DNA of 64,000 nt from Vitis vinifera (taxonomy: Eukaryota > Streptophyta > Magnoliopsida > Vitales > Vitaceae), in assembly GCF_030704535.1 (NCBI RefSeq), contig NC_081820.1, positions 16,793,501 through 16,857,500 on the forward strand. Direction: 5' to 3'. Of this stretch, positions 8,434 to 44,100 are shown one piece after another. The notes beneath the pieces were generated by a model. The model saw only the letters and a program-made list of their open reading frames with translations. It was not told the DNA's origin and ran no database searches. The position numbers were made by a program, and so were the translations under genes. The stretch's first letter is position 1. Each line of letters begins with the position of its first letter.

Positions 8434-8635
8434 GCCTTAAAATCCGCAACCCATCACACACATCAAAGTTGGTTAATGATTTCATTGGCTATTGGCTATA
8501 TGTCAAATTAATTCCTCGCTTTAATTTTAATTTATTTTTATTTTTGTGAGACGGTTGAGGCTGATACTGAACCGTCAAAATCCCTTGAACGAACTCAACG
8601 CGACTCTCTGAAAATCAGAAATAACTGAAACTGTG

Positions 8636-9406: not shown

Positions 9407-9997
9407 CTATTTCTTACCAGATCTGCCCCAAAGAGACTGCCAGAAAACAGGCCAATTGTTCTGAGCCTCAGTCCAACCCAGAAAGGAGCCTTCCCTCAAT
9501 GGATCCCAACTGGAGGACACAATCCCATAACTCACTCCCAACAGTGCCGACCCAAAGAAGAAGAAGGAGACAATGAAGGGCACCCATGTCGGCACATCAA
9601 TTTTCAACCCCACCTTCAAATAATAAAAGAAAGGGAAGAACAACAGCCCTATCATCAGTGGAATCCCCACTGAAAACCCCATTCTGCTTATCATCCTGTT
9701 CGTCACTATCTCAGGAATTACGCCCTCCTCTGCTTCTGCGCCTTCTTCTTCTTCTTCCTCCTCGTCTTCATCATCACTGTAATTTTTCTTTAGCTTCTTC
9801 CTCTTCTCTGTTTTCCTGGGTGAAGGCCCAAACCCTTTAGGCCGGTTCAAGCTTGCACAGGGCGGCGTTGAGTGTAACAAACGGTTTTTTGAGTATAATT
9901 TAGGGGTTGAGATTGGGAATTGGGAGATGTAGAGTGCTGGAGTCGATGAAGGTGGGGATATTAGCGGCGTGGTTGTTGAAAATGAGCAGCATTCCAT
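9407..9997 (-). CDS. PAM68: PAM68, photosystem II assembly factor (chloroplast)
   Basis: Intronless protein of about 196 aa. A Ser/Thr/Pro-rich, acid-poor N-terminus (about 1-45) looks like a chloroplast transit peptide. It is followed by the motif NRPKGFG, a basic stretch (RKTEKRKKLKK), a long acidic run of Asp/Glu (about 75-91), and the conserved block VTNRMISRMGFSVGIPL leading into two membrane helices (about 107-128 and 137-158). The C-terminal segment SSWDPLREGSFLGW is a signature of the PAM68/DUF3464 family. In Arabidopsis, PAM68 sits in the thylakoid and helps early PSII assembly with the D1 precursor; a paralogue, PAM68L, serves the NDH complex. The long acidic stretch favours PAM68, but the two cannot be separated with certainty from sequence alone. 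The gene is complete. Its promoter side faces 10,000-10,100. Confidence 0.88.
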   Translation of the reverse strand: MECCSFSTTTPLISPPSSTPALYISQFPISTPKLYSKNRLLHSTPPCASLNRPKGFGPSPRKTEKRKKLKKNYSDDEDEEEEEEEGAEAEEGVIPEIVTNRMISRMGFSVGIPLMIGLLFFPFFYYLKVGLKIDVPTWVPFIVSFFFFGSALLGVSYGIVSSSWDPLREGSFLGWTEAQNNWPVFWQSLWGRSGKK

Positions 9998-12129: not shown

Positions 12130-12924
12130 GAACCTAATAGTGCTAATATGAAAACTCATGTATATCGTTCTGTTCATCCACCCTATATTGTCGAAGTTTT
12201 GGCTTTGGAGATAGTCAAATATATTCATGATACCAGAGATAGTGATCATATATATTATTAGATGGAACATTCACAAATGACATAAAAATTATGTAGACAT
12301 TTGGTGCACCATTCCCTCAAAGAAGATAAATGCACCGAGCCCCACCAATGGAGATGCCCCCATCATATTTCGCATCATCATGATAGCAGTTGATACGACA
12401 CCTAATGATAATGAATTATCTTTATGTATATTAATACATAAAAACGTTTATCACGAAAGAATAGTGATAGAAAGAAATATAAAAAAAAAAGTTTTGGTGA
12501 GGGAATGAATCAACAAAACGAACATATAATCGAATAGGGTATCTTGTCCACTAATTGTTTTATTTCATAACTCACAACTCATTGTAAATATTTCAACTTT
12601 GATTTTATTTTATTTTTAAATTAAAGGTAATATTTTATTTTATATTTGTTAAAGTTAAAGTCTATATTTTGTAAGTTATTTCATGTTAAAGTAGTATTAT
12701 GGCTAAAAAAATATTGTTGTAAAACATTTTTATTTGTTAATTATTTATTATATTTTAATCCTTTAATTCTTTTAAATTAAATTAGCAGATTTGAAGCTTT
12801 ATGGCATTTTAAAATCTTTTGGATTTTGGCTCAACATAGAACCACTAATTAAATTAAAATGGATTAGACATACAATTCAAGTGCACTTCAATTCAATAAG
12901 TAGATCTATATGTAAAAATGTATA
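12130..12924. repeat. Left part of a ~1.65-kb tandem duplication, split by the retrotransposon
   Basis: This stretch is clearly similar to 32,510-33,263. Shared phrases include CATTTGGTGCACCA, TAATGATAATGAAT, ATCGAATAGGGT.TCTTGTCCACTAAT and TTTTGGATTTTGGCTCAACATAGAACCA. The copy continues on the far side of the retrotransposon at 31,624. No protein-coding frame survives. 11,640-12,130, just upstream, is unassigned non-coding sequence. Confidence 0.8.
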
Positions 12925-13819
12925 TGTGGACCCTGCATTTCGGCTCATGCGTTTTTCACTCAATGGCGAGCTCGATTTTGATTTGAAAATGATTTTATTT
13001 ATTAAAAAAAAATGACTTGGAGTCGCCACTTATTTTTGTTTCATTTTTAAAAGGGTAAACAAAATAAGAAAGAAAACCCTAAATGTGACTCCTTATTTTG
13101 AAAAAGGTGGTCTGTGAAAAATCGAATCGGGCTTGGGGTTAGGTTACTTATCCGAAAGGTACGGTAAAGACCGTAGCACCCCTCTAAGTCCCTAAAGTCG
13201 GGTCTCTACTAATTAAAATGAAGCTGACATGACAATCAATAAGAAAATCAATGGATACTCAAATCAATCATGCACATATGGGAATCGAAGCATGCACATA
13301 GAATGACCAAAATGGGAGTGGATGCATACCTGGACCACAAATGAGCAATGTGCTACCATAAAAATGGGGTCAGTGTACAATAAAGAGCACAAAACATATC
13401 ACATGCATCACCAAACAGAAATTAAAACTATTCGAAAGAAAACTGGATTTTTGAAATTCGTTTGAAAATTTGAGTCTTAGGGATTATTTGAAAATTGGAT
13501 TTTAAGAAATTAAATGTAAGAATGAGAATTTTAGAAATTAAATTTGAAAGAAATTGGAATTTTGAAAACTATTTGAGAGTTTGGGGATTTTAAATAAAGG
13601 GATAAGTGAATAAATAAACCAATGAAATAATAATAATGACGAAATAAAAACGATTGGATAAATAATTGCGGAAGTTAGGATTTCGGAAATTGGAAATTGA
13701 ACTTAGAGATTGGAAATTTAAAGAATTATTTAGAGATGGAATTTTAAATATATGAATAAGTGAATAAATGAATAAATGAGATGATAATAATAATAACGAA
13801 AATAATCACTAAGCAACTG

Positions 13820-14840
13820 AATGTGAATAGTGGAATTTTTTATATTGGGAATTAAATTTGGAAGTCGGATTTTTGAAGAACTAAACTTTAACGATTGAGA
13901 TTTTTTTAAATAAATAAATAAATAAATATGGAATAATAATAATAATTAAAAAAAATGATATTTAAATGAATGAAAGTGAATAGTGGAATTTTTTATATTG
14001 AAAATTAAATTTGGAAGTCAGATTTTTGAAGAATTGAACTTTAATGATTGAGATTTTTAAAAGAAATAAATAAATAAATGTGGAATAATAATAATAATAA
14101 TTAACAAAAATGATATTTAAATGAATGAAAGTGAATAGTGAAATTTTTTAGATTGAAAAATTAAATTTGGAAGCCGGATTTTTGAAGAATTGAACTTTAA
14201 TTATCGAGATTTTTAAAAGAAATAAATAAATAAATATGGAATAATTATTAATAATTAACAAAAATGATATTTAAATGAATGAAAGTGAATTGTAGAATTT
14301 TTTGAGATTGAAAATTAAATTTAGAAGTTGGATTTTTGAAGAATTGAACTTTAATGATTGAGATTTTTAAAAGAAATAAATAAATAAATGTGGAATAATA
14401 ATAATAATAATTCACAAAAATGATGTTTAAATGAATGAAAGTGAATAGTGAAATTTTTTAGATTGGAAACTTAAATTTGGAAGTCGGATTTTTGAAGAAT
14501 TAACTTTAATGATCGAGATTTTTAAAAGAAATAAATAAATAAATGTGGAATAATAATAATAATAATTAACAAAAATGATGTTTAAACAAATGAAAGTGAA
14601 TAGTGAAATTTTTTATATTGAAAAATTAAATTTGGAAGTCGGATTTTTGAAGAATTGAATTTTAATGATCGAGATTTTTAAAAGAAATAAATAAATAAAT
14701 ATGGAATAATATTAATAATTAAAAAAAAAATATTTAAACGAATGAAAGTGAATAACGGAATTTTTGAAATTGGAAATCGAGTTCGGAAATTGGAAAGTTG
14801 GAGAATTGGATTTTAATATTAGAATATGAAGGCGCAAATG
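13820..14840. repeat. ~153-bp minisatellite in the 3' LTR
   Basis: About seven imperfect units, with starts near 13,823, 13,974, 14,127, 14,283, 14,437, 14,594 and 14,745. Each carries GAAAGTGAATAGTG, AATTAAATTTGGAAGTCGGA, TTTTTGAAGAATTGAACTTT and a run of AAATAAATAAATA. The same array is in the other LTR at about 28,415-29,410, with its own unit-to-unit changes. Confidence 0.9.
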
Positions 14841-14951
14841 AATAAATAAATAAAATGATGAGTGGTGATGGACTGTATGCCAAGGTGGCCATGCGAAGTG
14901 TGGGCCCTTGGTTGATTGTGAAGGCTTCCCATAAAAAATTGTAAGATCCTA

Positions 14952-15730
14952 CTATCCATTAAAAGGTTGAAAGGGAAGTGTGAGCTAATCAAGGAAGGTG
15001 GTCACTGGCGTGGCAAACCTAGGCTCATATGCAAAGTCGTGCAACTCACAACCTACTCCACTGCTACTGTTGCTGCCGCCGCTCCCACTAAGGAAAGGAC
15101 ATGGAGGAATCCATTGTCAGATCTTTCCATAGATGTTAAACAATAATGCATTGTCTGAACCTCAAATCATAATGGCAACGAGCTCTCCATGACCTACACA
15201 ATCAAACCCTTAGTTGTTTTCAACCTCTGCAAATTGAAGGTAGAGTTGTTGTGGCATTCTCTCAATCTCCACCCATGTTGTTCCACAAGCTTGTAAACCC
15301 CAAATCCTCAAGCTTTTTGGGCACGTTAAGCTTGCTCTTCTCCACTGTTGCAACTAGAATGAGTCTCCCTCTACTCTCCACCAAGCTTAGGGACCAGAGA
15401 AATCTTCTCATTAGAGCTTGAATCCTCCACCAATTGTTGGTTGCAATGTCATATGCCAAAACACCGAATGGGTTGTAGTTCATGTAGTAGAATCTCCCTT
15501 GGACGTGAATCATTCGCCCGGATTCAAGGTTGCAAAGCCTTGGTAGAGAAGAAGTGGTGCCCCATATTAAATAGAACCCACCCCCATCAATGTGAAAGCT
15601 TTTTATGGTCAGATTCTTGATCACATATGAGGAAATCAAATCATCTCCAACAATAACTACGTCTATGGATGAGGAAGTGACTGTTAAGCCGATGGATGGG
15701 AAGAGACGAGGTCTCAGGGTGGGAAGGATA
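14952..15730 (-). pseudogene. UFO: Captured UFO (F-box) gene fragment in the 3' LTR
   Basis: Minus-strand translation matches, in order, the C-terminal ~60% of UNUSUAL FLORAL ORGANS, the F-box partner of LEAFY in flower development. Visible blocks are TLRPRLFPSIGLTV, GDDLIS, SSLPRLCNLESGRM, VQGRFYYMNYNPFGVLAYD, SLVESRGRLILVA.VEKSKLNVPK, TTWVEIERMPQQLYLQFAEVE, QWIPPCPF, FAYEPR and LTLPFQ, then a stop codon at 14,952-14,954. Damage includes a one-base insertion after LNVPK that shifts the frame, an in-frame TAA after AEVE, and further stops. The F-box N-terminus is absent, so no functional product is expected. UFO is intronless in plants, so the fragment does not show whether capture was from RNA or DNA. 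Confidence 0.88.
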
Positions 15731-16369
15731 GGTATAAAAGTGAAACAATATGCATGAAGGATGGACATGCAGGACTAGAAATAGGTTAGTGAGATGGTTG
15801 GAGTATAGGTATAAAGGGCACGTGGTGTTAAAAAGAAAGGTGATATGCATGGGAGGTTATGAAAGACAAGTATGGAAATGGGTATGAGAAGGTCGGCAAT
15901 GAGCTTGGGCGTGGGTATGAGCGGTAATATAGAGAGAGAAAAGGTGGTGATGGGTATATAGGATGAGTTAGGCGGGTTTGCATGGGACAAAGCTGTTGGG
16001 TAGGAAGGGTAATAGGTTTTGCAAAGGTTTGGCTTGATGGGTATGGGACACAAACTGATGGTTCAGGCTACTAATGTTAAGTGATTGGCTTGGGCTCATA
16101 TTTTGCTGAACTTGAGCTACATCTTACCCTTGATTTGAACCAGAAAAGGAATCAGCAAGATCGGGGACTGAATTGAGATGGGCATCTTCCACTAGCAGAG
16201 CAACATTCTGATATAACTCAACTTGAAGTAAATCAATATTAATCTCAACATAATGCTTTCTCCTGTGCCAAAATTTGCTACTCGTTGTTGTTCTATTTTC
16301 ATCATTCTCAGAAGACTTTTGACTTTTCTAATTTCTTTAAACCAACCAATGCTTTAATCTACTTCCCTG

Positions 16370-16750
16370 AGACTTCTATGTTGTCCTTTTCAGCAAATCT
16401 GCCAACAACCGACTGAACAAGCCTTTCACACTTTATGATTGCATTTGCACATGTTGGGGAATGTCTGGTTGTTGCAATAAGTACAGAAATCATGCATTCT
16501 TCCAAAGCTACTGTAGGATCGGTCTCCAACAGATAACAAATCCTAGGAAGGATTCCCATCCTAACTAGACCTGCAGCAAAATCTTGTCCAGCAACAACAA
16601 TATCATCTTAAATGGTGAGTTCTTCTTCATTCTTGGCATCCATGATATCCTCACTTAAAGGAAAAATATTATAAGGTGTGGTGTTGTATTTCCAAAATCC
16701 ACCATGAAGGAAGACAAGCTCAATCTCTAGTCCACTTCGGAACACCGGGG
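16370..16750 (-). pseudogene. IYO: Captured MINIYO/RPAP1 gene fragment in the 3' LTR
   Basis: The minus-strand frame runs from [19 protein letters not shown] through [14 protein letters not shown], a stop, DDIVVAGQDFAAGLVRMGIL, LLETDP, LEECMISVLIA, RHSPTCANAIIKCERLVQ and VVGRFAEKD. I recognise this as an internal segment of the plant RPAP1 homologue MINIYO, a nuclear factor linked to RNA polymerase II and transcriptional elongation. About 120 codons are present with one nonsense change (where LTIQ is expected). The gene family is named from memory of these motifs. The piece abuts the ABCE1 fragment directly, with no spacer visible near 16,750. Confidence 0.78.
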
Positions 16751-16955
16751 CAGTAGATTTTCTAATACCATTAGTTCCAACCAAACCCAGAACTTGGCCT
16801 GACTTGGGCACTGGTAGTCCCAGCAATTTAAAAGCGCTTGGTCCATAACGGTGAGTGGTATCTTTATCCAAATCTTTTGGAAGATTGATGATCTGAAGTG
16901 CTTCAAATGGGCATTTCTTGATGCAAATACCACATCCAATGCATACCATGGATGA
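16750..16955 (-). pseudogene. ABCE1: Captured ABCE1/RLI fragment in the 3' LTR
   Basis: Minus-strand translation gives the second ferredoxin-like cluster of ABCE1, C-x2-C-x2-C-x3-C-P ([15 protein letters not shown]). It continues with [38 protein letters not shown] and the Walker A lysine region KST. ABCE1 (RNase L inhibitor) is the essential ribosome-recycling ATPase. Here the Walker A glycine is replaced (NGIRKST), whereas the other LTR copy reads NGIGKST. Homology stops abruptly at the Walker A motif, where MINIYO sequence begins. Upstream in sense, 16,956-17,040 does not match the expected ABCE1 residues and may be intron, which would mean DNA-level capture. Confidence 0.88.
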
Positions 16956-17798
16956 ATACCAAGAGCAGGGGAAAATGGCAAAATAGAGTACAGATAATTG
17001 AAACAAAGTGAACCCATACAAGCCTCATGTCATGCACCAATCACTGAGCTCAGATGAAGGTGAGTGAAATCAAAGGATTTTAAACAAGAACACAAGTATT
17101 ATTAAGACATTTTATAGGAGAGTTACAGTAGAGACAAATTATGCTTAAACAGAACTAAAGGAAATGAGACAGAAATCAACTATAACTAAAATCACAGCAA
17201 CCAAGAGATCAACAACAAGTCTATGGCCTATGATCATCCACACCCAAACCAACAACAAATTATACTCAAAATCAACAATAACAGAGAAGGAAAACGGAGA
17301 AATCCAAAGTAAAAAAATCCATAGTGGCCATACCTTACCGGAACTTCTCAAGCAGTGCTTACTCAGCTTTCCGTATTTTCCCTTCCTCCCCAGATAAAAA
17401 AACCCCCTCCTCTTCTACCTTGCTTCTATTTTTCCTCTCAAAACTAACTTCCCAAAAAAAAAAACGTTTACTCTCACTCCCCAGCCAAAGGATAAAAATC
17501 TCAACTAAATGTCTCCTTCCATGTTCCTGTCTTCTTCCGCAAGCCATTACCCACTCCCACTATGCATCACTCAGAAAGTGTGTCATCTTCACCTACCACC
17601 ATGGGCGAGCCATGCTCTTGGTTGTGTCCATGCAGTTGGTCTTCCTCCAAAAAGGGGTTTCCCCTCTACTTAAAAAATGGAAAAAATTTCATTCTCTCGG
17701 ATGGTCATGAAATGTCTTTTGTTTCAACTTATAAAAATAGTAATAATAGAACAATAACAACAACCCATTAACACTTGGCTTGAAAAGAGGGGTCTACA
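16956..17798 (-). other. Leader-like first part of the 3' LTR
   Basis: In sense this begins at the LTR 5' end (17,798). It includes a TATA-like TTATAAG sequence near 17,730-17,740, then pyrimidine-rich transcript-like sequence, then a CCG|GTAAGG-type donor near 17,335 followed by T-rich intron-like sequence to about 17,000. It could hold the LTR promoter, and possibly a captured untranslated exon and intron of ABCE1. That reading is inference. No protein is encoded. Confidence 0.4.
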
Positions 17799-18439
17799 AA
17801 TATGCCCCTCTTCGGTAGAGTTCACAAGTGTAAAGAATATGAACATCGAAATGAAATGAGAGTGTGAAGGATGAGTAGAATGAAGTGAACTCTACCGAAG
17901 AACCAAGGAGACCCCCACAAGGACACCAGTGAAACACAAACTCACTCAGACCAACAGACAAACACAAAGGCTCTGATCCTAAAAGAAAAGGTGGGTGTCT
18001 CAAAATGTCTCTGAAGCCACATTGAGGGTCTAAATTCCCTCTAAGACGTCTCCAAAAGTGACTTGAAAGACCGTATCAAAGATGAGTAATGGTAAAACCA
18101 CTCTGGAGTACAATAAAGAGCGTGTCCTAAGAAGACTGCCCCAATGGAACGACATGAAAGTACCAAGTGTAGGGTGCCCAACAACATGACCAATATAAGT
18201 GGCATGACCTCGAAGGACCATGACATGTGCAGTGAAAGGAGGAATCTGGACGAGCAATGATGAATAAGCGATAAGCACAGGGTGATGAGGTGAGGACAAT
18301 GAGGGTGAATATAAGACCCTGAAGGTCAAATGTGTAATGTCAGTGGATATGAATGCCAAGGACTGTGACTCTGAATGATATGGGTAAGGAGGAATGACTT
18401 TAAACGTCAACGGGAGAAAAGAAAATGGTGACTTACAAT

Positions 18440-19470
18440 GCATGCATGGATATGTATAACGGCTTTGAACGCCAAACTAAAAGAAAAATGTGATAGTGGC
18501 ACTGAACGTCAAATAGAATAGTGGCTCTAAACGCCAAAACTAAAGAAAAGAAATGACTTAAGATGCATGAATGGGTATGAAAAAAAAACGGCTCAGAACA
18601 CCAAAACTAAATAAATGAAATGACTTAAAAAGGCCCGAAGGAGTGTGTCTAATGGCTCTGAACGCTGTAATGGAGGAAAATGGTGATGTATCGAATGAAA
18701 GATATACATGAGGACTCCAAGTGTCGTACTGAAAACATGGCTTTGAGTGCCAAATAAAAGACAAGTAATGGCTTTAAACGTCGAAAGGAATGATATGGCT
18801 CTGAACATCAAACTAGAAGACAAGTAATGGCTCTAAATGCTGAAATGAAGGTGTGGCTCTAAACACCAAACTGAAAAGAAACGGTGGCTCTGAATGCCAA
18901 ACTAGAAAGGGATGGTGACTCTAAACGCTAAACTAAGCATAAATGGTGCCTCTGAACGCCAAAATGAGAAAGGATGGTGGCTTCGAACGCTGAAACTAGA
19001 GATGCAGTACTGAACGCCGAAACTGTGAAACGATGATGACTTCAAACGCTGAAACCGAGATGATGGTGGCTCTGAACGCTGAAACTAAAGGCGTGGCTCT
19101 GAACACCAAACTAAAACTAATAGCTATAAGGGTCAAGCTAAGAAAGATGACTCTGAGCGTCATAAACGAGAAGACATGGTGGCTTTGAATGCCAAGCTGA
19201 AAAAATGATCAACGACTCTAAACACCAAAATGAAAATGAACACTCTGAACGCCAAACTAAAAGAAACATCGATGAATGCCAAGCTAAAACAAAAGCTCTG
19301 AATGTCCAACTAAACTAGTAACTAGGAATGTCAAGCTGAGAAATATGACTCTGAACATCGTGACTGAAAAGACATGGTGGCTCTTAACGCTAAGCTGGAA
19401 AGGGGTGACTTTGAATGTCGTAAACCGAGAATGAATAGTGGTTCTGAATGCCAAACTACAAGGAAATAAT
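18440..19470. repeat. Degenerate short-unit minisatellite (GGCTCTGAACGCCAAA)
   Basis: Several tens of imperfect copies of a unit of roughly 25-50 bp centred on GGCTCTGAACGCCAAACT, separated by purine-rich spacers such as AAAAGAAATGGTG. Unit length is irregular. Lies in the retrotransposon tail and is non-coding. Confidence 0.85.
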
Positions 19471-20479
19471 GAAGGAGTGGAATATGCCCTAGTGTAGCAT
19501 GCTGCTGTAACTCTTAATCCAATGGAAATGGTGGAAAAGGACTCCACGAGTCTCGAAATATGCTCTACTAGCAAGTCAGAATGATCAAATCGACTGCGAA
19601 CATAGTCTCATAACCCATCCGACTTGATCACGATGCCTGACGAGATGTCATGATGAGTCAGACAACTCTAACTCGAAATACCCTACTGTCGGAGTCCATC
19701 GTCATTTGAAACGAATAATTCGACAGAGTCTCAAGAGAATAATCTAAATGTCATGCTCCGCTGAAAACCCGTCTCGATAAAAAACATGAGAATAGTGACC
19801 AGCAAAGCAAATACAATATCTCTCGGCCGAGTGATGAAAAACTATAACAAATTTGTGAGAGAACGATCGTCTCCGCAACTGAATGAGGGAAATATGCCCC
19901 AGTATAAAGTCAAATATATCAGGTCAGTCCTGATAAGTCGAGAATAATTCCATGGGGGACATATAAAGGATCTAAGATGTACTCCGCTGAAATGGTGATG
20001 TGGGAATCCACGCACCTGAGATAACTCTGTCCAAGAATCACGACTATATCAGAAAATGTGAATCTGGCTTAAAGACTCAAGAGAGGCTCCACGGAGTATC
20101 AGGACACAATGAAATCAAATCATCAACCTGATGTGTATCTCAAAACTGAGGATGATCATGCAAATCAGTGGGGAATCTACAAATCTCGACTGAAATGGGG
20201 AATACGCCCCAGTGTAGCATAAAAAATGTGACAGGTCGGAAAATCAGATGAGCTCAAATCATCCATCATCGAATGCACGATCCAAGTCATCCATGTCTAC
20301 AACTGAATCAGACCCATAGATTAAAGGGCGTCTCCCGGAAGAAAGCATAATGACATCTAAGTGTCTAGAAGTGCAGGCCTAATTAGGCAACTCCCGAGAG
20401 GCTCCACTTAGGAATCATCGTAAAGATAGCGAATAGATCATCGTCTCAACATACGTCTCGCAAATGGGGATAAGCGAGC

Positions 20480-21290
20480 AACTCCACCAAGATCTGTAAA
20501 TCTCATCCAGAACGGTAATATGCCCCAGTGTGGCATCGAATGTATGATAGGTCGGAGATCGGGCGACATGAAATCATCTATCATCGAACATGTGACCTTC
20601 GTGAAGATCCATAAATCTCATCTGAAATGGAAATATGCCCTAGTATGGCATCGGATGTACGACAAGTTAGAAGAATAGGTGACATGAAATCATCTATCGT
20701 CGAACATGTGACCTTCGTGAAGATCCGTAAATCTCATCCGAAATGGAAATATGCCCCAGTACGACATCGGATATGTGACAGGTCAGAAGAACAAGTGACA
20801 TGAAATCATCTATCGTCGAACATGTGACCACTGTGAAGATCCATAAATCTTATCCGTAATGGAAATATGCCCTAGTATGGCATCGGATATGTAACAGGTC
20901 GGAAGAACAGGTGACATGAAACCATCTCTCATCAAACGCATGATCCTGGTCATCCAAATCCATGACAAAATCGGGTCCAAGCGTCCAAAAGGCATCTCAC
21001 AGAGGAAAGCATGGTGACATTGGAATGCCGAGAAGTGCGGGCCTAACCGGATGGCTACCAAGAGTCTCTACTTAGGAATCATCATAAAAATGGTGAATAG
21101 GTCATCGTCCTGATGCACATCTCACAAGTAAAAATGATCAGATGACTCCATGAAGATCCATAAACATCATCCGAAACGGAATATGCCCTAGTATGGCATC
21201 AGATGTACGACAGGTAAAAAAAACAAGCGACATTGAATCATCCCTCATCAAACGCGCGATCCCGGTAATCCAAACACAATTGAATCAGAT
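20480..21290. repeat. ~116-bp tandem repeats in the retrotransposon tail
   Basis: Three well-aligned units start with CATGTGACC near 20,589, 20,705 and 20,821. Each contains GTGAAGATCC.TAAATCT, AATGGAAATATGCCC.AGTA and a GACATGAAATCATCTATC block. More degenerate related units extend to about 21,290 and upstream to about 19,900. Confidence 0.85.
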
Positions 21291-22615
21291 CTAAACATCA
21301 AAGAGGCGACTCCCAAAAGAAGAAGCATAACGATATCTAAATATCAACCAGATCTCAAACATCTGTCCAAGTAGAGGTTGTCGAATACGACATCTGATCC
21401 CATGGCCTCAGGGTGGTCTTAAGATACGGGACGTAACATAGGCTAGGGTGATAGGGTAATAGAAATGAAAGGAAACTAGGCCCAAATACCCAATGATAAA
21501 AAACTCATGCCCTCATGTATGAAACACAACATGTATAGAAAAGTCCGTGAGCCATAGACCTGAGGGTGCCCAACACGAACATAATATCAATAATAAGATA
21601 ATGAGGCAAATCAAACTGATAATGAGATATGCAGGAACGATGGAAGAGAAATATCAAATCTGGAATAGGTCAGTGTAAGAAAAGACAAGGGAGGTGAAGC
21701 GAATGGGATGAATCACAAGCAATGACGAAGATGACAGCGAAACAATAAATATATGAAGAAATGTGGTGATTAACTCAAATCAAACATGAAGTGAAGTCAC
21801 ATCAATAATGAATGTAATGATGGAAATGACAATGACCCGGAGTCCCTAGGAGAAGGTCATTCATCTCACTCTCAAAGAGATATGACAAAGCAAATACAAA
21901 TAACATAAGATTTCAGAGAGCTCACATACGAACTCTCAACAACAAACATACTCGATAATTTGGATATCAATATACACACTCAATGATCGAGAATACTATG
22001 CACACACACATGTGCTTATTTTTCTTTTCATTTTCATTTTCATCATTTTTTTTTTTTTTACATATATACAAATGTACACACCCCAAACATGAACCAAATA
22101 AGCCCCAAAGATGATATCAATAATGGATAAACACACTGTCAAGTGCTAAGGTAATAAAAACTATCTCTGATGAGATAACCTTCTCAAACTGAGGAACCCT
22201 AGATCAATGTTCGTGGGATAAATAGTGGAAATGACATGACTACCCTCAATGTAATGAACTGAGGAGGATCACCACTCGGTGTGGGAGAACATGATGCTAG
22301 ACAATTAGCAGATAGAATAAAGAAAAAGAGACGAATAACACAACCAATGAGATGAGATGAAATGCAAGGATGCAGTGATGAGAAAAGATAATGAGAAGAA
22401 TGCGCCCCTAGGTCCAAGGCTCATGGAACTTCTAAACAATGAATGCATACACTAAAGGGCCCCTATCCCGGTGTGAAAATGTGAGCAAAGCGATAAGAAA
22501 GAAAGACTATAACGCGCGCACGAGGCTCAATGGGCTAGCAACAGACTATACATCAAAATGGTGAAAGGGTGTATGGCTAACCAAAACGATGGTCACCCAT
22601 CCTGCAACCATGGTC

Positions 22616-22879
22616 TCAAACATAGTACCTCTTTAGTTGATCCACATTGGTCGGCTCCGAGACTTGGTTTCCATCTAAATCCATCAACCATGAAGCGCCC
22701 TCTCGGGTCAACTCCTTGATGAAATAAGGCCCGCTCCAGTTGGGTCTGAATTTCCCTCTAGGATCTTTGATCAATCCCTTGATGACCTTTAGAACCAAGT
22801 CACCTATCTGTAATGATTTGGGTTTGACCCGCTTTTTGAAGTACATCAAAAGCAATGATTGAGAGGGAGGAGTGATCAA
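22616..22879 (-). pseudogene. Integrase C-terminal remnant of the retrotransposon
   Basis: The minus-strand frame reads KRVKPKSLQIGDLVLK, PRGKFRPNWSGPYFI, ASWLMDLDGN and NVDQLKRYYV, then a stop. This is the typical C-terminal end of a Ty3/gypsy integrase/polyprotein. The catalytic integrase core, RNase H and reverse transcriptase that should precede it are absent; upstream sequence switches at about 22,870 to a duplicated scar. It cannot encode a working integrase. Confidence 0.88.
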
Positions 22880-22975
22880 CGCAGAAGTACATCCGATGGT
22901 GCTTGTGGCTCCGATGCCCTCACGAAGTACATCACAAGCAATGATCGAGAGGGAAGGGCGATCAACGCAGAAGTT
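22843..22975. repeat. Duplicated scar at the pol deletion
   Basis: A phrase of roughly 35-40 bp (TACATCA.AAGCAATGAT, GAGAGGGA.G, GATCAACGCAGAAGT) occurs at 22,843-22,888 and again at 22,927-22,973. GATGGTGCTTGTGGCTCC also occurs at 22,894 and again near 23,070. The scar sits exactly where reverse transcriptase, RNase H and the integrase core should be, so it probably marks the rearrangement that removed them. Confidence 0.75.
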
Positions 22976-22999
22976 GAAGTGTCAGGGGCTCGTCACTCA

Positions 23000-23960
23000 A
23001 TATTTACTATTGGACGAGGCGTTGAAGCTCAGTCTCTTGAGTAATACTGAGTCCCCCAATGATACCATCCGATGGTGCTTGTGGCTCCAATGCCCTCACG
23101 AAGTAACCTGTCAAGCTCAAGGTGTACGGGCGAACAGGATAATCAAACGATGTGTGAGTTAGCCGAACCCTCACCCTCTCCTTGCGCAATCGCACCATAT
23201 ATCGATAATCGGCCTCAGTGGGAATGAATCAGAGTCTGAATGGTACATCGTGATCCGGGAAAGCCATGAACTCACTAGGCCCGTGCTAATGTCGCCCCAA
23301 ACCTATGCCGGGAAGATAATACATGCCCATCATCATGTCGAGCACCACCGTGCTACTGTGCTGATCAAATGACATGGCCACAAAGTCTCGACATAAATCC
23401 TCTATCTCTAGGGTCTGCACCTCGTCGAATGTGAATCCGGTCAAGAGTAGGTCGTCATCACTGTGACTGATCTAAAGTATCGGCTCGGCAGAAATATACA
23501 TGTCTCCCACGGACTGCACTACGACGACCTAGCCATCATGAATGAACTTCACCTTCTAATGAAGGGAATAAGGAATGGTCCCAGCTCTGTGGATCCAAGG
23601 TCAACCCAAAAGTAGGTTAAAGGATGCAGGAATCCTCAAAACATGGAATATAGCAACAAATGTAGCTGGACCTATCAGTAGCTCAATCTCCAAGGTGCCC
23701 ATAACCTCCCTCCATGTACTGTCGTATGCTCAAACGGTCTGAGTAGAGGGACCAAAATCAGAAGGTGCATAGCTAAGGGCGATGGTAGTGGCCAGAGGAC
23801 AAACGTTCAGGGCCGAGCCATTGTCCAAAAGGACAGATGGGACTCAACGACCTGAACAACCAATAGATATATAAAGGGGACGAGTGTGGCTCGAGCCCTC
23901 CGATGGCAAGTCGTCATCAGAGAATACGATGCATGTGGCTCTACCAACTGTCACCATATG
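23000..23960 (-). pseudogene. Retrotransposon protease and downstream linker, decayed
   Basis: Minus-strand translation across several broken frames shows the aspartic-protease active-site motif VLLDNGSALNVCP (about 23,796-23,835), then IELLIGPATFVA, FHVLRIPASFNLLLG and PWIH. The linker segments FDEVQTLEIEDLCRDF, SSTVVLDMMMGMYYLPG and IPTEADYRYMVRLRKERV follow. The D-N-G-S form of the active site is common in plant Ty3/gypsy elements. Frameshifts and at least one stop interrupt the frame. Confidence 0.8.
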
Positions 23961-24249
23961 AATCAATCCCTCAAGAGTAGTAGTGGTCTCAACTCTAATC
24001 TTGCTCAAGACTCAAATCAATGCATCTCGGTGAGTACTAAAAGATGCCAACAAACTCCAGATAGAAATGCGAGCTTGAGTGCTTTATAACTGCCTCAAAA
24101 TCTCATCATCCTCCCTCCTGACCTTCTCTTGGGATGACGTCACCTCCAAGGGTCTAACGGCTGTGGGGGGCTGCTGTTGTACCACCCTGCCCCCGCGGAT
24201 AACATACTGTACATTAGAAGTGTGAACATCATCAACATGCGGAACCTGA

Positions 24250-26023
24250 ACCTCATCGACATCTGGAAGCAAAAAACAAAAGGCGTCTGAACACTGTAAT
24301 GCGGGAAAGCTGAACATTATAATGCGGGAAAGTCAGTGGCTCAACAGTGGTCGTCTGTACTAATGCCGCCTTGAGAACTAATCTGAAATGAACGAGCATC
24401 CGAGGCCCCAAAGTCACTCCGCTCATCTCACAAATCCCATCTGACACTATGGGCTCTGCCTCAGAATCATCCCAGCTAAGGATACGAATATGATCATCAA
24501 ACTCAACAAAATCGATGGAGTGCATGCTATTGGCCGGAAGGGGAACCGCATGAGTAGTATGAGCCGGTAATGGGTTCATGGTTACACTTGGATGACCCAA
24601 GTGAACCAAACCCTAGTCGATCAGATCCTGGATGGCATGCGTGAGAGCGGTACAACGATCGGTCTCATGTCTAGGCCCCTGATGGTATGCACAGTCCAAA
24701 TCCATCCTGAACTGAGGTGAAATAGGCTGGGGTGGTGACTTAGGAGTGAGAGCAGTCAATTACTCGGCCTCTATAAGCTTCCGAAGAGCCTGACTCAACA
24801 GCATGCCCAACCGTGAGAATTGTCTCTATGTCCTCAAAGCGAATGGAGCAGAAGTCTGCTGAGCTCTAGGTCTAGGATAGGGCGTCGTAGGTCTCGCGAC
24901 GAACTGAGCAGCATAGCATGGTTGTCCCATGGCCGTATATGAGACAAGTGGTCTCTCAATGCCCTGGATGGCATAGTAAGGCAAAGCTAGTGTCTGAGGC
25001 ATGTAAGTTTGATCATAAGTCGGACGAGGTGCTCGTGACCTGTACTGATGAGGCACATAAGAAGGATGAGTCCCGGGAAGCTGTGGAACTAGCTTATGGC
25101 ACCTAGGAGGCCTCTGATTGGAAGAACTGATGGCGCTCACATCAACTGACCTCTGTCCTCCGAATGGTTTCTTCCCCTTAACATCACTAGGGGAAGAATC
25201 TGACCACAATCCTCTCGAGATGTCGTCCTCGACATCATATAAAGCCAAAACCAGAGAACCGAAATTTGTGAATGGTACCCCAACCACATGCCTGGAAATC
25301 CTAAGCTGTAGGCTCCTCAAAACCATCTGTATCTGATCTCTCTGAAGGCCTATCAATGATCTCAGCAATCTTCCCGCGTCAGCGGGAAATGAATGACGAA
25401 ATGGACTCATCTATCCTTTGTCTCAGAGCCTCGAGCTCTTTCCTCGATACATCTACGATAGTGTTAAATGAAAACTATCGTAAGAACTCCTGGGCCAAGT
25501 CGTCCTATGTCCGGAGTCATGAGGACTCCAAGGATGCAAACCAGTGTTGGGTCGTCCCACTCAGAGATAGTGGGAATAAAGTGATCATCTGTGACTCATC
25601 TAATTCGTGTGCTCTCATCACTGTGCTGTAGAGTCTAAGGTGGATGTGAGGACAACCAATGCCCGTGTACCTCTCAATGTTGGGCATCATGAACTTAGCC
25701 GACAAACTGGCCACCGGCATACCCTCGAGATCATCTCAAACAGCGGAGCAATTAGATACTCTCAACTGTCTCATGGGCTGCTCAATACGGTCCATACGTG
25801 CATGAGCGTCATCAACGACTGTGGTTTGAACGACTACAGGTGGAGTAACCTCATAATGCCCATGCAATACATAAGGTGAGGCTTGAGGCACTGTCGAAAC
25901 AGGTGGTGGCGGTAGAGGTGGTAACGAATCATGAAGTGTCTCATCCTGAACTACTAGCGATCTGCTCTGCTGGTTGCCAATCTCCTGCCTGAGACTAACC
26001 AGAGCCTCCTGGATAGAAGCCAT
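24250..26023 (-). pseudogene. Retrotransposon gag, decayed
   Basis: The N-terminal frame starts at 26,023 (MASIQEALVSLRQEIGNQQS) and breaks before the capsid-like block MPNIERYTGIGCPHIHLRLY, MITLFPLSLSGTTQHWF (25,517-25,720). It resumes as DRPSERDQIQMVLRSLQ, DISRGLWSDSSPSD and a Pro/Tyr-rich region (24,826-25,410). Near 24,650-24,720 lies a C-x2-H-x4-H-x4-C zinc-binding motif (CAYHQGPRHETDRC), the form I associate with Tat-type elements, followed by a premature stop. Frameshifts and stops make it non-functional as one polyprotein. Confidence 0.88.
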
Positions 26024-27473
26024 GGTGGCCGTAAACTAATCAAATGTAATGACCTGCTGATCCATACTCGATCTCTCTAAAAATCGAACCAATCTCCCCT
26101 TTACTCTGATCCAAGAAGGTAAATCCAGACTGAGAACAAAGATCTGATCCTACAAAGCATGAAGAAATGAATAAGGATATGGCCTGGGGAAAACATGGAA
26201 GAAATGATAACCTAAACGGAAACAAGCAAGGTATCCAAGTGAAGACGGACTGTCTGACCGTATTCAAACTCATACTGATTTTCGTGCACTCTCAATTGGA
26301 GACTAAAGAAGGAGTATCGGAATCCAAATTGTGACTATAGAGGCTCTGAAAGCCCTCGGATGCACCCACGTGTAGAAAGCGAGTCCTAATCGAAGGATCT
26401 ACGGCTCAACCTACAAGGTCAAGGTGGCTCTAAAAGGATAAGGGTGGACTTTAAAAGATCCCTAGCAGAAGCGATCATAGCCTCCGGTGGTACGCAACCT
26501 CCTGCATGCCTCCGAAGAGATGAAGCGCTTCCATGCAAGGTGGTCCTCACCTCCACACATGCACTACCTCGACATCCCAGGGGGTTTCCTATGGTGAAAC
26601 CTCTCGAACTCTCAATGCTCAATGGTCAATTAGAGTGCATAGTGAACGGTGTGGGTGCATCCGAAAACCCTAGGAAACTAAAACAAAAAAGGAAACACAC
26701 CGACCACACAAATATCCACGAAACCTAGCTTAAGACTATACAGGTTTTCAATGATCGGACTCCAATCGACATCAAAGTGTCGGTCACCTCCAGAATGCTC
26801 CCAAACATCGGTATAGCCCGTCGCTAGACCCTACTCCTAATCTCTAGCTCGGTCATAATAACAAGCACACAAAAGGCCTCACACTTGCAATAGTGAGAAC
26901 CGGAATGAAAGGAATGACCAAGACCAAGAGAGTTGGAGGTAAGTGGATAGATGTGCGGCTCACATGGACAGGCAACATGCAATCATGTAGAAGGAGGACA
27001 GTCATGCAACATGCAGTCAAGCAGAGTATAGGATATATCACTCAGGTCCACATACAAACTATGACAATCAGATGAAAAGTGATACAGACATCATGCTCGA
27101 AGATGATCGAGATAATATACGAGCAAGGGAATCAATATGTCGAATCAAACGGTATATAAAAATTAATCTATACATGCAAGACGATCAGAACAATCATGGC
27201 AAAAACCAGAATCACTACGCTAAGCAAAGCAAGATAAGCAAACGATGTAATCAGCATGTCAAGTATCTTAAACAAATATATCAATGAAGCGCAAAAAGAA
27301 ATACTATATTAGAATCCTCAATCAAGACGATCAACAAACACGATCAACATGTTAATGTCCAAAGTGAAAACTCAGGAGCTCTCAATATGCAATCAAAAGA
27401 CAAGTACCCATTGATCGACTCATCAAACGCCACATTTGCTTCATCTTAGGTTCAAGTTTGACCCTCTTTCGAT

Positions 27474-27492
27474 CCCCAGTGGAGTCGTCATT
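27474..27492 (-). promoter_or_regulatory. Candidate primer-binding site
   Basis: Immediately inside the 5' LTR, the sense strand reads TGACGACTCCACTGGGGA. It resembles the TGGCGACTC.GCTGGGGA site that I recall as complementary to an arginine tRNA 3' end in Ogre/Tat-type elements, with a G-to-A change near the start. Its position, two or three bases from the LTR end, is as expected. Confidence 0.65.
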
Positions 27493-28414
27493 TTGTGGAC
27501 CCCGCATTTTGGCTCATGCGTTTTCCACTTGATGACGAGCTCGATTTTGATTTGAAAATGATTTTATTTATTAAAAAAAATGACTTGGAGTCGCCACTTA
27601 TTTTTGTTTCATTTTTAAAAGGGTAAACAAAATAAGAAAGAAAACCCTAAGTGTGACTCCTTATTTTGGAAAATGTGGTCTATGAAAAATCGGATCGGGC
27701 TCGAGGGTCAGGTTACTTATCGAGAAGGTACAGTAAAGACCGTAGCACCCCTCTAAGTCTCTAAAGTCGGGTCTCTACTAATTAAAATGAAGCTAACGTG
27801 GCAATCAATAAGAAAATCGATGAATACTCAAATCAATCATGCACATATAGGAATCGAAACATGCACATAAAATGACCAAAATGGGAATGGATGCGTACCT
27901 GGGCCACAATGAGCAATTTGCTATCATAAAAATGCGGTCAGTGTACAATAAAGAGCACAAAACATATCACATGCATCACCAAACAGAAATTAAAACTATT
28001 CAAAAGAAAACTAAATTTTTGAAATTCGTTTGAAAATTGGAGTCTTATGGATTATTTGAAAATTGGAGCTTTAAAGACTATTTGAAAATTGGATTTTTAG
28101 AAATTCAATGTAAAAATGAGAATTTTAGAAATTAAATTTGAAAGAAAATGGAATTTTGAAAACTATTTGAGAGTTTGGTGATTTTAAATAAAGGGATAAA
28201 TGAATAAATAAATGAATGAAATAATAATAATGACGAAATAAAACGATTGGATAAATAATTGCGGAAGTTAGGATTTCGGAAATTGAAAATTGAACTTAGG
28301 GATTGGAAATTTAAAAAATTATTTAGAGATGGAATTTTAAATATATGAATAAGTGAATAAATGAATGAATGGGATGATAATAATAATAACGAAAATAATC
28401 ATTAAGCAACTGAA

Positions 28415-29410
28415 TGTGAATAGTGGAATTTTTTATATTGGGAATTAAATTTGGAAGTCGGATTTTTGAAGAACTAAACTTTAACGATTGAGATTTTTTT
28501 AAATAAATATGGAATAATAATAATAATTAACAAAAATGATATTTAAATGAATGAAAGTGAATAGTGGAATTTTTTATATTGAAAATTAAATTTGGAAGTC
28601 AGATTTTTGAATAATTGAACTTTAATGATTGAGATTTTTAAAAGAAATAAATAAATAAATGTGGAATAATAATAATAATTAACAAAAATTATGTTTAAAC
28701 AAATGAAAATGAATAGTGAAATTTTTTAGATTGAAAAATTAAATTTGGAAGCCGGATTTTTGAAGAATTGAACTTTAATGATCGAGATTTTTAAAAGAAA
28801 TAAATAAATAAATATGGAATAATTATTAATAATTAACAAAAATGATATTTAAACGAATGAAAGTGAATAGTAGAATTTTTTGAGATTGAAAATTAAATTT
28901 AGAAGTTGGATTTTTGAAGAATTGAACTTTAATGATTGAGATTTTTAAAAGAAATAAATAAATAAATGTGGAATAATAATAATGATTAATAAAAATGATG
29001 TTTAAACGAATGAAAATGAATAGTGAAATTTTTTAGATTGAAAAATTAAATTTGGAAGCCGGATTTTTGAAGAATTGAACTTTAATGATCGAGATTTTTA
29101 AAAGAAATAAATAAATAAATATGGAATAATTATTAATAATTAACAAAAATGATATTTAAACGAATGAAAGTGAATAGTAGAATTTTTTGAGATTGAAAAT
29201 TAAATTTAGAAGTTGGATTTTTGAAGAATTGAACTTTAATGATCGAGATTTTTAAAAGAAATAAATAAATAAATAAATAAATAAATATGAAATAATATTA
29301 ATAATTAACAAAAATTATATTTAAACAAATGAAAGTGAATAACAGAATTTTTGAAATTGGAAATCAAGTTCGGAAATTGGAAAGTTGGAGAATTGGATTT
29401 TAATATCATA
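28415..29410. repeat. ~153-bp minisatellite in the 5' LTR
   Basis: The same unit as at 13,820-14,840, about seven imperfect copies. Two neighbouring units near 28,706-28,860 and 29,010-29,160 are unusually alike, suggesting local homogenisation after insertion. Confidence 0.88.
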
Positions 29411-29538
29411 ATATGAAAGCGCAAATGAATAAATAAATAAAATGATGAGTGGTGATGGACTGCATGCCAAGGTGGCCATGCGAAGTGTGGGCCCCGGGTT
29501 GATTGTGAAGGCTTCCCATCAAAAATTGTAAGATCCTA

Positions 29539-30310
29539 CTATCCATTAAAAGGTTGAAAGGGAAGTGTGAGCTAATCAAGGAAGGTGGTCACTGGCGTGG
29601 CAAACCTAGGCTCATATGCAAAGTCGTGCAATTCACAACCTACTCCATTGCTACTGCTACTGCCGCTGCTCCCACTAAGGAAAGGACATGGAGGAATCCA
29701 TTGCCAAGTCTTTCCATAGATGTTAAACAACAATGCATTGTCTGAACCTCAAATCATAATGGCAACAAGCTCTCCATGACCTACATAGTCAAACCCTTAG
29801 CTGCTTTCAACCTCTGCAAATTGAAGGTAGAGTTGTTGTGGCATTCTCTCAATCTCCACCCATGTTGTTCCAAAAGCTTGCAAACCCCAAATCCTCAAGC
29901 TTTTTGGGCACATTAAGCTTGCTATTCTCCACTGTTGCAACTATAATGAGTCTCCCTCTACTCTCCACCAAGCTTGGGGACCGGATAAATCTTCTCATTG
30001 GAGCTTGAATCCTCCACCAATTGTTGGCTGCTATGTCATATGCCAAAACACTGAATGGGTTGTAGTTCATGCAGTAGAATCTCCCTTGGATGTGAACCAT
30101 TCGCCCGTATTCAAGGCTGCAAAGCCTTGGTAGAGAAGAAGTGGTGCCCCATATTGAATAGAACCCACCCCCATCAATGTGAAAGCTTTCTGTGGTCAGA
30201 TTCTTGACCACATATGGAGAAATCAAATCATCTTCAGCAACAACTACGTCTATGGATGAAGGAGTGACTGTTAAGCCAATGGACGGGAAGAGATGAGGTC
30301 TCAGGGTGGG
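29539..30310 (-). pseudogene. UFO: Captured UFO fragment in the 5' LTR
   Basis: Second copy of the UFO C-terminal fragment, ending at the same stop codon (29,539-29,541). It keeps blocks such as SLPRLCSLEYGRMVHIQGRF, YCMNYNPFSVLAYDIA, WWRIQAPMRRF and VESRGRLIIVATVENSKLNV. It shares with the other LTR the one-base insertion after LNVPK and the TAA after AEVE. In several places it is closer to the expected protein (for example QAPMRRF), so the two copies have decayed independently since insertion. Confidence 0.88.
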
Positions 30311-30499
30311 AAGGATAGGTATAAAGGTGAAACAATATGCATGAAGGATGGAGGTGCGAGACTAGAAATAGGTTAGTGAGATGGTTGGAGTATAGGTATG
30401 AAGGGCACGTGGTGTTAAAAAGAAAGGTGATATGCATGGGAGGTTATGAAAGACAAGTATGGAAATAGGTATGAGAAGGTAGGCAATGAGCTTGGGTGT

Positions 30500-30572
30500 G
30501 GGTTTGCATTTCCAAAATCCACCATGAAGGAAGACAAGCTCAATCTCTGGTCCACTTCGGAACACCGGGGTA
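30500..30572 (-). pseudogene. IYO: Residual MINIYO fragment in the 5' LTR
   Basis: Only [20 protein letters not shown] remains before the internal deletion. The adjoining residues come from the sequence on the far side of the deletion. It shows that the ABCE1-MINIYO join existed in the parent element. Confidence 0.72.
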
Positions 30573-30775
30573 GTAGATTTTCCAATACCATTAGTTCCAA
30601 CCAAACCTAGAACTTGACCTGACCTGGGCACTGGTAGTCCCTGCAATTTAAAAGCGCTTGGTCCATAACGGTGAGTGGTATCTTTATCCAAATATTTTGG
30701 AAGATTGATGATCTGAAGTGCTTCAAATGGGCATTTCTTGACGCAAATACCACATCCAATGCATACCATGTATGA
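30572..30775 (-). pseudogene. ABCE1: Captured ABCE1/RLI fragment in the 5' LTR
   Basis: Same extent as the other copy: C-x2-C-x2-C-x3-C-P iron-sulfur motif (CIGCGICVKKCPFEA), [35 protein letters not shown]. The Walker A motif is intact here. Homology ends at the same base as in the 3' LTR, where MINIYO begins. Confidence 0.88.
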
Positions 30776-31623
30776 ATACCAAGAGCAGGGGAAAATGGCA
30801 AAACAGAGTACAGATAATTGAAACAAAGTGAACCCATACAAGCCTCATGTCATGCACCAATCACTGAGCTCAGATGAAGGTGAGTGAAATCAACAGATTT
30901 TAAACAAGAACACAAGTATTATTCAAACATTTTATAGGAGAGTTACAGCATAGACAAATCATGCTCAAATAGAACTAAAGGAAATGAGACATGAATCAAC
31001 TATAACTAAAATCACAGCAACCAAGAGATCAACAACAAGTCTGTGGCCTATGATCATCCACACCCAAACCAACAACAAATTATACTCAAAATCAACAATA
31101 ACAAAGAAGGAAAGCGGAGAAATCCAAAGTAAAGAAATCCATAGTGGCTATACCTGAACTTCTCAAGCAATGCTTACTCAGCTTCCCGTATTTTCTCTTC
31201 TTCCCTAGATCAAAAAACCCCTTCCTCTTCTACTTTGCTTCTGTTTTTCCTCTCAAAACTAACTCCCAAAAAAAAAAAACATCTGCTCTCACCCCCTAGC
31301 TAAAGGAAAAAAATCTCAGTTAAATATCTTCTCCCCTATTCCTCTCTTTTCCCGTAAGCCATTACCCACTCCCACTGTGCATTACTTAGCAAGTGTGTCA
31401 TCTTCACCCACCACCATGGGTGAGCCATGCTCTTGGTCGTGTCCATGCAGCTGGTCTTTCTCCAAAAAGACCCCTCCTCCCCACCCTACTTAAAAAATGG
31501 AAAAAATTCCACTCTCTCGGGTGGTCATGAAATGCCTTTTGTTTCAACTTATAAAAATAGTAATAATAGAACAATAACAACAAGCCATTAACACTTGGCT
31601 TGAAAAGAGGGGTCTACAGTATA

Positions 31624-33588
31624 GTATAATGAGCTCTACATAACTCAACATTTTGTTTATAGATTAATATGTTACCGATTAAATTATATTAAGATGTAAT
31701 CACATATGCTATAATGCAATAAATCAATCTACTAGGAAAAATGTATAAGATTAGCTCCACAAAACTCAAATATTTCTTATAAACTAATCTATTACTTAAT
31801 AGTCTTTATAGTGCATGTTTTCCTATAGACTAACTAATATAATTATTTGATTTTTTTTTTATGTTTTAAAATATTATTGACCATAATTAGAAAAAGAGCA
31901 TAGGTATATTTTCATTTTCTTTAATTTCATTCAACTTTTCAAATTTAAACAAAAATATGTTATTATAAAAATAACTTTACATCCTTCCCCGACATTAATT
32001 CATTAATTTCCTCCTAAATGAATAATTCTAAAAAAATGCTAATAAAATGTCTTGGAATTCTACTAGACATTTGTTAATAAGTAGACAAGATGCTCATGAC
32101 TATCATCTCTACAGGTCATAGTGCAACAACCACTTATCCTAGAGCATCACGTATCCCCATTGTCATAATCTTTCACTGACCAATGTGATGCAACCACCTT
32201 TAAATTTTAAGAAAAATGTTAAATTTTAATTTTTAGCATATTATTTTATTGTGTTAGAAATCCAAATAAAATTATTTTTATTATTTTTTTAGTATTATTA
32301 ATTATTTAGAAAATCATTTTTAAAAATATCAATATCTTGTGTTGGAGTGTGGGATCGAGGTCTTTTTTTGCAAAAGTGTTGTAATATGAAAGCATTTTTC
32401 ATCCCTATTACTTATACTGAAGCATCCTACATCCCTGTTGTCATCATCTCCACAGCCACAATGTAGCTATCACCTCCATTAGATCAGTTGTATTTGCATC
32501 AACTTCAATTGGAGCCACCTCCACCATCATCATTCATCTATCTTATACTGCTAAAGTTTTGGTTAGTATATGGTAAATTATATTCATGATACTAGGAATA
32601 GGGATCTTATCTATTATTAGTTGGGACATTCACGTATAACATAAAAATGATGTAGGCATTTGGTGCACCACTCTCCCAAGGAAGGTAATGCATCGAGCCC
32701 CATAGAAAGAGATGTGTTCATCCTCGTTCGCATTATCATTGTAGTAAATGATGCAACACCTAGTGATAATGAATTGTCTTTTTATATATTAATACAAAAA
32801 ACGTTATCACAAAAGAAAAAAAAAATAGTTTTGGTGAGAGAAGGAATCAACACAATGAACATATCATCGAATAGGGTGTCTTGTCCACTAATCGCTTTAT
32901 TTCAAAGCTCACAACTCTTTGTAATTATTTCAACTTTGATTTTATTTTATTTTTAAATCAAGAGTCATATTTCATTTTATATTTATTAAGGTTAAAGTTT
33001 ATATTATATAAGTTATTTCATGTTAAACTAGTTTTATGCTAAAATAAATATTGTTGTAAAATAGTTTTATTAGTTAACTATTTATTGTATTTTAATCTTA
33101 TTTTCTTTTAAATTAAATTAGTGGATATGAATCTTCATGACATTTCAAAATGTTTTGGATTTTGGCTCAACATAGAACCATTAATTAAATAAAATTGGAT
33201 TAGGTGTGCGATTCATGTGCACTACAATTCAATAAGTTGATTTATAGGTAAAAATGTGTAGTATAATTAACTCTACATAACTCAACAATTTTTTTATAGA
33301 TTAATACGTTACCAATTAAATTATATTAAGCATGCGACCATATGTACTACAGTGTAATAGATCATTCTACATGAAAAAATGTTTAATATAATTAGTTTCA
33401 CATAACTCAAATATTTCTTATAAACTAATCTATTACCAAGTAGTCTTTGTAGCCCATGTTTTCCTATACACTAATTAATATAATTATATTTTTCTTTTTA
33501 TGTTTTAAAATATTATTGACCATAATTAGAAAAATAATGTAGATATATTTTCATTTTCTTTAATTTCATTCAACTTTTCAAATTTAGT

Positions 33589-44057: not shown

Positions 44058-44100
<43 letters not shown>

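Follow-up and report, generated by a model that had tools for sequence, protein, structure and literature searches.

How could pieces of several host genes come to lie, one after another, inside the terminal repeats of a retrotransposon? The question is raised by a long terminal repeat (LTR) retrotransposon at 12925-31618 of a 64,000-nt stretch of Vitis vinifera DNA (the window; contig C16, positions 16793501-16857500), whose sense strand is the minus strand. The original prediction, read from the sequence of the window, was that both LTRs carry adjoining sense fragments of ABCE1, MINIYO (IYO/RPAP1), and UFO. Comparison with the genome (495.6 Mb, 21 contigs) supports, by host DNA identity and exact intron loss, that the LTR has captured unrelated host genes in its own sense orientation, and we suggest, with a probability of about 0.82, that the U3 part of the LTR is a mosaic of four spliced host mRNAs that arose from template switching.

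Host gene pieces in the two LTRs

The repeats and the pieces that they hold are given below, with DNA identities to the host loci (L009 to L012).

12925-17798, minus: 3' LTR (LTR1), 4,874 bp, with TG..CA ends, pairing with LTR2
16748-16943, minus: ABCE1 piece of LTR1, 91.8% identical to L011 over 171 bp
16370-16758, minus: MINIYO (IYO/RPAP1) piece of LTR1, two joined exons, 94.0% and 93.6% identical to L010
16095-16385, minus: piece of a fourth gene in LTR1, presumably IQD-type, two joined exons, 87.0% and 86.8% identical to L012
15708-16094, minus: spacer, of which 15832-15907 and 15708-15763 are found also in the LTR of L016, a sibling copy
14924-15724, minus: UFO piece of LTR1, 93.0% identical to L009 over 801 bp
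27494-31618, minus: 5' LTR (LTR2), 4,125 bp, with a 767-bp gap against LTR1
30568-30763, minus: ABCE1 piece of LTR2, from DNA comparison
30495-30578, minus: IYO remnant of LTR2, 28 codons, from LTR alignment and DNA comparison
29511-30311, minus: UFO piece of LTR2, 94.3% identical to L009
29849-30769, minus: gene model VitviT2T_024730 (P0003), whose 221 aa are given exactly by the stretches 30769-30523 and 30267-29849

In its sense direction, LTR1 reads ABCE1, IYO, the fourth gene, the spacer, and UFO, all in element sense. The three predicted genes are present on the sense strand of both LTRs, but IYO is reduced to 28 codons in LTR2. ABCE1, IYO, and the fourth gene adjoin one another in LTR1 as had been proposed, but UFO stands ~370 bp apart, behind sequence that is partly LTR sequence shared with L016. 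Three captured genes proved to be an undercount, as a fourth host gene lies at 16385-16095. It was lost from the 5' LTR with 767 bp (LTR1 positions 16683-15917), a deletion that also cut IYO, and the cargo of LTR2 is accordingly ABCE1, the 28 codons of IYO, and UFO, with none of the fourth gene.

The source loci lie on four other contigs (ABCE1 on C2, IYO on C3, the fourth gene on C6, and UFO on C1) and show 87-94% DNA identity to the pieces, 40 of 47 candidates having been scored in this search. For the three predicted genes in LTR1, alignment to the host loci gave DNA identities of 91.8-94.0%, and for ABCE1 and IYO exact intron loss also supports the capture. Neither among these 40 candidates nor among the 26 of 26 scored for a related chimera (see below) did we find the genes joined at a locus that is not an LTR. 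The UFO piece of LTR1 covers residues 181-436, the stop codon position, and 28 bp of the 3' untranslated region; the host UFO protein is identical to V. riparia UFO at 432 of 436 residues. We take the fourth gene to be of the IQD type from its translated start and IQ-like exon motifs, and a Pfam search with one of its host exons gave no match. No protein clearly matched a 67-aa piece at 16327-16124, which genome DNA then placed in this fourth gene. A PDB search with UFO gave no match at E values up to 0.001, and one with the IYO piece gave only armadillo-repeat proteins (best E value 1.1e-6), not RPAP1. Sibling-copy DNA was also sought in IMG/VR and GTDB, where nothing was confirmed. The gene model VitviT2T_024730, whose UniRef name begins '4Fe-4S ferredoxin-type domain-cont...', is an ABCE1-IYO-UFO chimera inside the 5' LTR; in practical terms, a 5' LTR with captured fragments already sits in public databases as a gene.

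Origin of the pieces from spliced mRNAs

Three host introns are missing from LTR1 exactly at their GT-AG borders: a 122-bp intron of ABCE1 (at 16917/16916), a 1,205-bp intron of IYO (16524/16523), and a 5,376-bp intron of the fourth gene (16295/16294). The sources were therefore spliced mRNAs. At the IYO exon end, 51 of the 57 protein relatives scored (62 were listed, 5 of them unscored) leave the frame, 50 of these with V, the GT donor, as the next residue, and six read on; among the six, P0240 is an element-type chimera and P0245 resembles a retrocopy, L013, described below. When the sibling LTRs are included, 12 introns have been removed in six captured genes, and all nine distinct captured genes found are in element sense. 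The cargo is host DNA with an identifiable source, and the absence of introns and the sense orientation point to an origin at the RNA level.

The same observations bear on capture at the DNA level, whether through gap repair or through a nested Helitron or Pack-Mutator-like element (Pack-MULE) in the LTR. Multi-gene chimeras are, as is generally known, typical of Helitrons and Pack-MULEs, but DNA capture normally keeps introns, and both the loss of introns across six genes and the uniform sense orientation make this route very improbable, although no search was aimed at nested Helitron or Pack-MULE ends.

Processed pseudogenes of the type made by long interspersed nuclear elements (LINEs) could also have landed by chance in the LTR and then been carried along. 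Retrocopies of this type do exist in the genome: L013 (4616-5991, on C5) is an intron-less IYO copy of several exons, independent of the element, with no match to the window LTR family outside the IYO piece within 9.9 kb. L013 was considered as the source of the IYO piece and rejected, because the piece is 94% identical to the IYO gene but only 88% identical to L013. Furthermore, no poly(A) run was found at the 3' ends of the four window blocks, two host-host junctions lie inside exons at short words shared by the genes that meet there, and two LTR loci carry four genes each, every captured piece found being in sense. We therefore regard an origin from LINE-type retrocopies as improbable and retain the capture of spliced mRNAs by the element itself.

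Sibling LTRs with other gene sets

Related LTRs in the genome carry other genes. L014 (3722-9137; target-site duplication [TSD] CCCGT) contains ABCE1 together with an O-fucosyltransferase piece (host piece on C13, 85%), a piece of an LRAT protein (PF04970; host on C8, 94%), and a piece of an mRNA cap methyltransferase (PF03291; host on C19), in which six exons are joined and five introns are gone. L015 (TSD CAAAC) holds ABCE1 and the O-fucosyltransferase piece, and it is here that the O-fucosyltransferase domain (PF10250) was matched, just under the curated cut-off. L016 (TSD ATCCT) carries three joined exons of a gene on C7, with two introns gone; the first two exons match ubiquitin carboxyl-terminal hydrolase (PF00443). 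L014, L015, and L016, each with its TSD, resemble solo LTRs. L020 carries a piece of a C18 gene, which we take to be DIS3-like, with two introns gone, and copies of the L020 stretch around it occur on C3 and C10 (93-94%).

Captures were found in five of the seven LTR loci examined (the window, L014, L015, L016, L020, L021, and L022), a count that leaves out L017-L019; since L014 and L015 were found through the shared ABCE1, the figure for the loci not picked for a captured gene (L016, L020, L021, and L022) is two of four. The LTR of L017 looks short (~1.9 kb). A Pfam scan of eight open reading frames (ORFs) of L018, L019, L020, L021, and L022 gave nothing, which is a weak test on broken ORFs because the DNA search found a captured gene in the Pfam-negative L020. 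In the public proteins P0297 and P0301, ABCE1-IYO is fused instead to a SURP-domain gene, whose best host matches here are on C19 and C12; the ABCE1-IYO-SURP chimera itself is absent from the genome of the window (26 of 26 candidates scored). P0240 and P0301 thus suggest that there are copies which this assembly lacks. The gene sets of sibling LTRs thus differ, and repeated pickup of host mRNAs is therefore suggested.

Divergence of the LTR pair

Over 4,079 aligned sites, LTR1 and LTR2 show 229 differences (178 transitions and 51 transversions), which gives a Kimura two-parameter (K2P) distance of 0.059. With a plant substitution rate of 1.3e-8 per site and year, the insertion would be ~2.3 million years old, a date that is rough because LTR segments diverge unequally. 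The 767-bp deletion in the 5' copy came later than the capture. The public protein P0002 joins an LTR2-type ABCE1 part to a longer IYO part, which suggests that a copy without this deletion exists. Another public protein, the UFO-type ORF P0130, appears by eye to be LTR1-like in its first half and LTR2-like in its second, a mosaic that suggests recombination between copies.

Junctions and proposed mechanism

At the ABCE1/IYO junction the two genes have the word TACTGCCC (8 nt) in common, at the IYO/fourth-gene junction 13 of 16 nt are alike, and the ABCE1/O-fucosyltransferase junction of L014 also lies at a similar stretch. We propose that reverse transcriptase, while reading the 3' end of the element RNA to copy U3, would jump at such short similarities onto host mRNAs, presumably co-packaged with the element RNA, and would then return to the element RNA. 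Normal strand transfer would put the altered U3 into both LTRs, each later copy would carry the cargo twice, and further jumps in later cycles could add or swap genes. The cargo-bearing upstream part of the LTR is presumably U3.

Spliced sense cargo would also be expected from readthrough transduction, in which the element RNA extends into a neighbouring gene and takes up the spliced extension, the route by which some retroviruses gained oncogenes. One gene may have entered in this way at first, but the source genes lie on four contigs, so that four successive neighbourhoods would be needed, and the UFO piece begins partway through the coding sequence. Readthrough is thus quite improbable as the explanation, and template switching is preferred.

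Several points weigh against template switching at U3 or complicate it. The switching is read from end products only, namely the host identity of the pieces, their order and sense, the exact intron loss, their presence in both LTRs, and the differing sibling sets. There is no clear microhomology at the ABCE1 entry, the fourth-gene exit, or either UFO junction. Besides its two introns, L020 misses a 118-bp host stretch without clean splice signals, and L021 and L022 contain no recognisable captured host gene, showing that capture is not universal. LTR divergence varies by segment from 3.5% to 8.6% (chi-square p ~0.001), and this, together with the P0130 mosaic, indicates that the history has been obscured by later recombination. 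In a search that was not exhaustive, the window copy yielded no recognisable reverse transcriptase piece, so the enzyme would have come from elsewhere or been lost later, and the Tat/Ogre name that we give to the lineage presumes that we have recognised its motifs correctly.

Taking the sibling LTRs together, we tentatively suggest, at somewhat less than even odds, that the U3 of this family is a serial collecting site for spliced host mRNAs, whose strings could give small RNAs against several host genes together. U3 may accordingly be a hot spot of mRNA capture.

Fate and possible effect of the cargo

In the UFO piece, a frameshift and three stop codons are common to both LTRs. With the host gene taken as ancestral, both LTRs share 27 changes, LTR1 alone has 28, and LTR2 alone has 18; the coding changes fall at codon positions 1/2/3 in the numbers 9/6/8 (shared), 9/11/7 (LTR1), and 4/6/8 (LTR2), and C>T or G>A accounts for 56 of the 73 changes, the pattern that methylated DNA would be expected to give. 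Selection for a captured UFO protein was therefore rejected, the codon-position test covering the UFO piece among the captured pieces. Because there is no codon-position bias and the changes are mostly C>T or G>A, the UFO piece reads as decaying cargo that is not kept as a protein. The UFO cargo is probably carried along as a stretch that the 3' noncoding end of the transcript would include and from which small RNAs might come.

Identity to the host genes was counted for 21-mers and 24-mers. Exact 21-mers common to LTR1 and the host number 140 for UFO, 105 for IYO, 34 for ABCE1, and 13 for the fourth gene, and those common to LTR2 and the host number 184, 5, 5, and 0, respectively; the reverse-complement control gave 0 for all four genes. 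Because of these shared 21-mers, silencing in trans may be possible in principle. The capture leads to the prediction of element transcripts with ABCE1-IYO-fourth-gene-UFO sequence and of 21-24-nt RNAs matching UFO, IYO, and ABCE1.

Element anatomy and surroundings

The remaining features of the element are as follows.

12920-12924, unstranded: target-site duplication GTATA, left copy
31619-31623, unstranded: target-site duplication GTATA, right copy
33256-33260, unstranded: paralogous empty site; the alignment with the two element flanks reaches it and continues through it
17799-17813, minus: purine-rich tract GAAGAGGGGCATATT, adjoining the 3' LTR, read from the sequence
24826-26035, minus: broken pieces that we take to be gag-like, without transposon Pfam match
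22616-22981, minus: piece presumably like an integrase C-terminus, from its motif, without Pfam match
20489-20937, unstranded: tandem repeats of ~116 bp that separate the pol remnant from the 3' LTR
13430-14850, minus: ~154-bp tandem-repeat stretch in LTR1
12925-13429, minus: LTR 3' end, with 4,024 first-look candidates genome-wide, 40 of them scored

The element has paired direct LTRs with TG..CA ends and a 5-bp TSD, and in a paralogous copy of the target, alignable across the junction, the 5-bp site is present once (33256-33260), indicating a precise insertion; the predicted TG...CA ends and GTATA duplication were thus borne out by the aligned LTR pair and the paralogous empty site. Minus is taken as the sense strand because the purine-rich stretch precedes 17798 and the gag-like and integrase-like pieces read minus. 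After the 5' LTR stands TGACGACTCCACTGGGGAT, which may resemble an Arg-tRNA primer site. The region 24000-26100 has 818 first-look relatives in the genome, 40 of which were scored. Searched against Pfam, pieces from the window copy and from two relatives matched no transposon family and gave only sub-threshold YqgC and G-patch. The element is probably non-autonomous, and presumed motifs and the long LTRs suggest that it may belong to the Tat/Ogre type of Ty3/gypsy.

Elsewhere in the window, a related LTR-end fragment (87-90% identity) lies at 36078-36720, inverted relative to the element. A long inverted repeat of a coding region that we take to be hAT-like occupies 41652-44352, with a BED zinc-finger match below the Pfam cut-off; its inner arms of 498 nt are 96% complementary and 35 nt apart, a possible source of long hairpin RNA. 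Host genes near the element, as identified by Pfam, encode a leucine-rich repeat protein (2762-5869), a DUF7610 protein (8633-9244), and a PAM68-like protein (9410-9997).

Relation to known systems and significance

To our knowledge, gene capture by LTR retrotransposons has mostly been described for the internal region. The maize element Bs1 reportedly carries its cargo internally, as part of a protein-coding ORF. Unlike that of Bs1, the grape cargo lies in the LTRs, is doubled in each element, and varies between siblings, and its UFO piece, with its frameshift and stops, is without coding constraint. Bs1 is nevertheless the nearest known case; its gene capture was described by Elrouby and Bureau (2010), as cited in passages of PMC7264820 and PMC11963269. 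In rice and sorghum, 672 and 1,343 LTR-captured genes, respectively, have been reported (PMC3726574), and as there, LTR retrotransposons carry and multiply host genes in grape; unlike the grape pieces, the captures in the part of PMC3726574 available to us are described within full-length elements, and LTR-internal pieces are unmentioned in that part.

Host-derived sequence within the LTR, inherited in both LTRs, is also found in the terminal-repeat retrotransposons in miniature (TRIMs) Cassandra, Helenus, and Ajax, whose cargo, in the sections of PMC10886601 available to us, is a small-RNA gene kept around promoter motifs, whereas the grape cargo consists of several mRNA fragments with no visible kept function. 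The LTR of BARE-2 contains Wis-2 sequence and, according to the available part of a review (PMC13317346), originated from abnormal template switching. A new LTR would have arisen in the same manner in grape, with the difference that the donor for BARE-2 was another retrotransposon and the donors in grape were host mRNAs. In the titles and abstract openings of the open-access literature, we found no report of serial spliced host genes inside plant LTRs. The recipient here is the terminal repeat, with its promoter and terminator, and siblings differ in what it contains. From such a series of LTRs, copy-choice captures of host mRNAs could be dated and counted at each junction within one genome.

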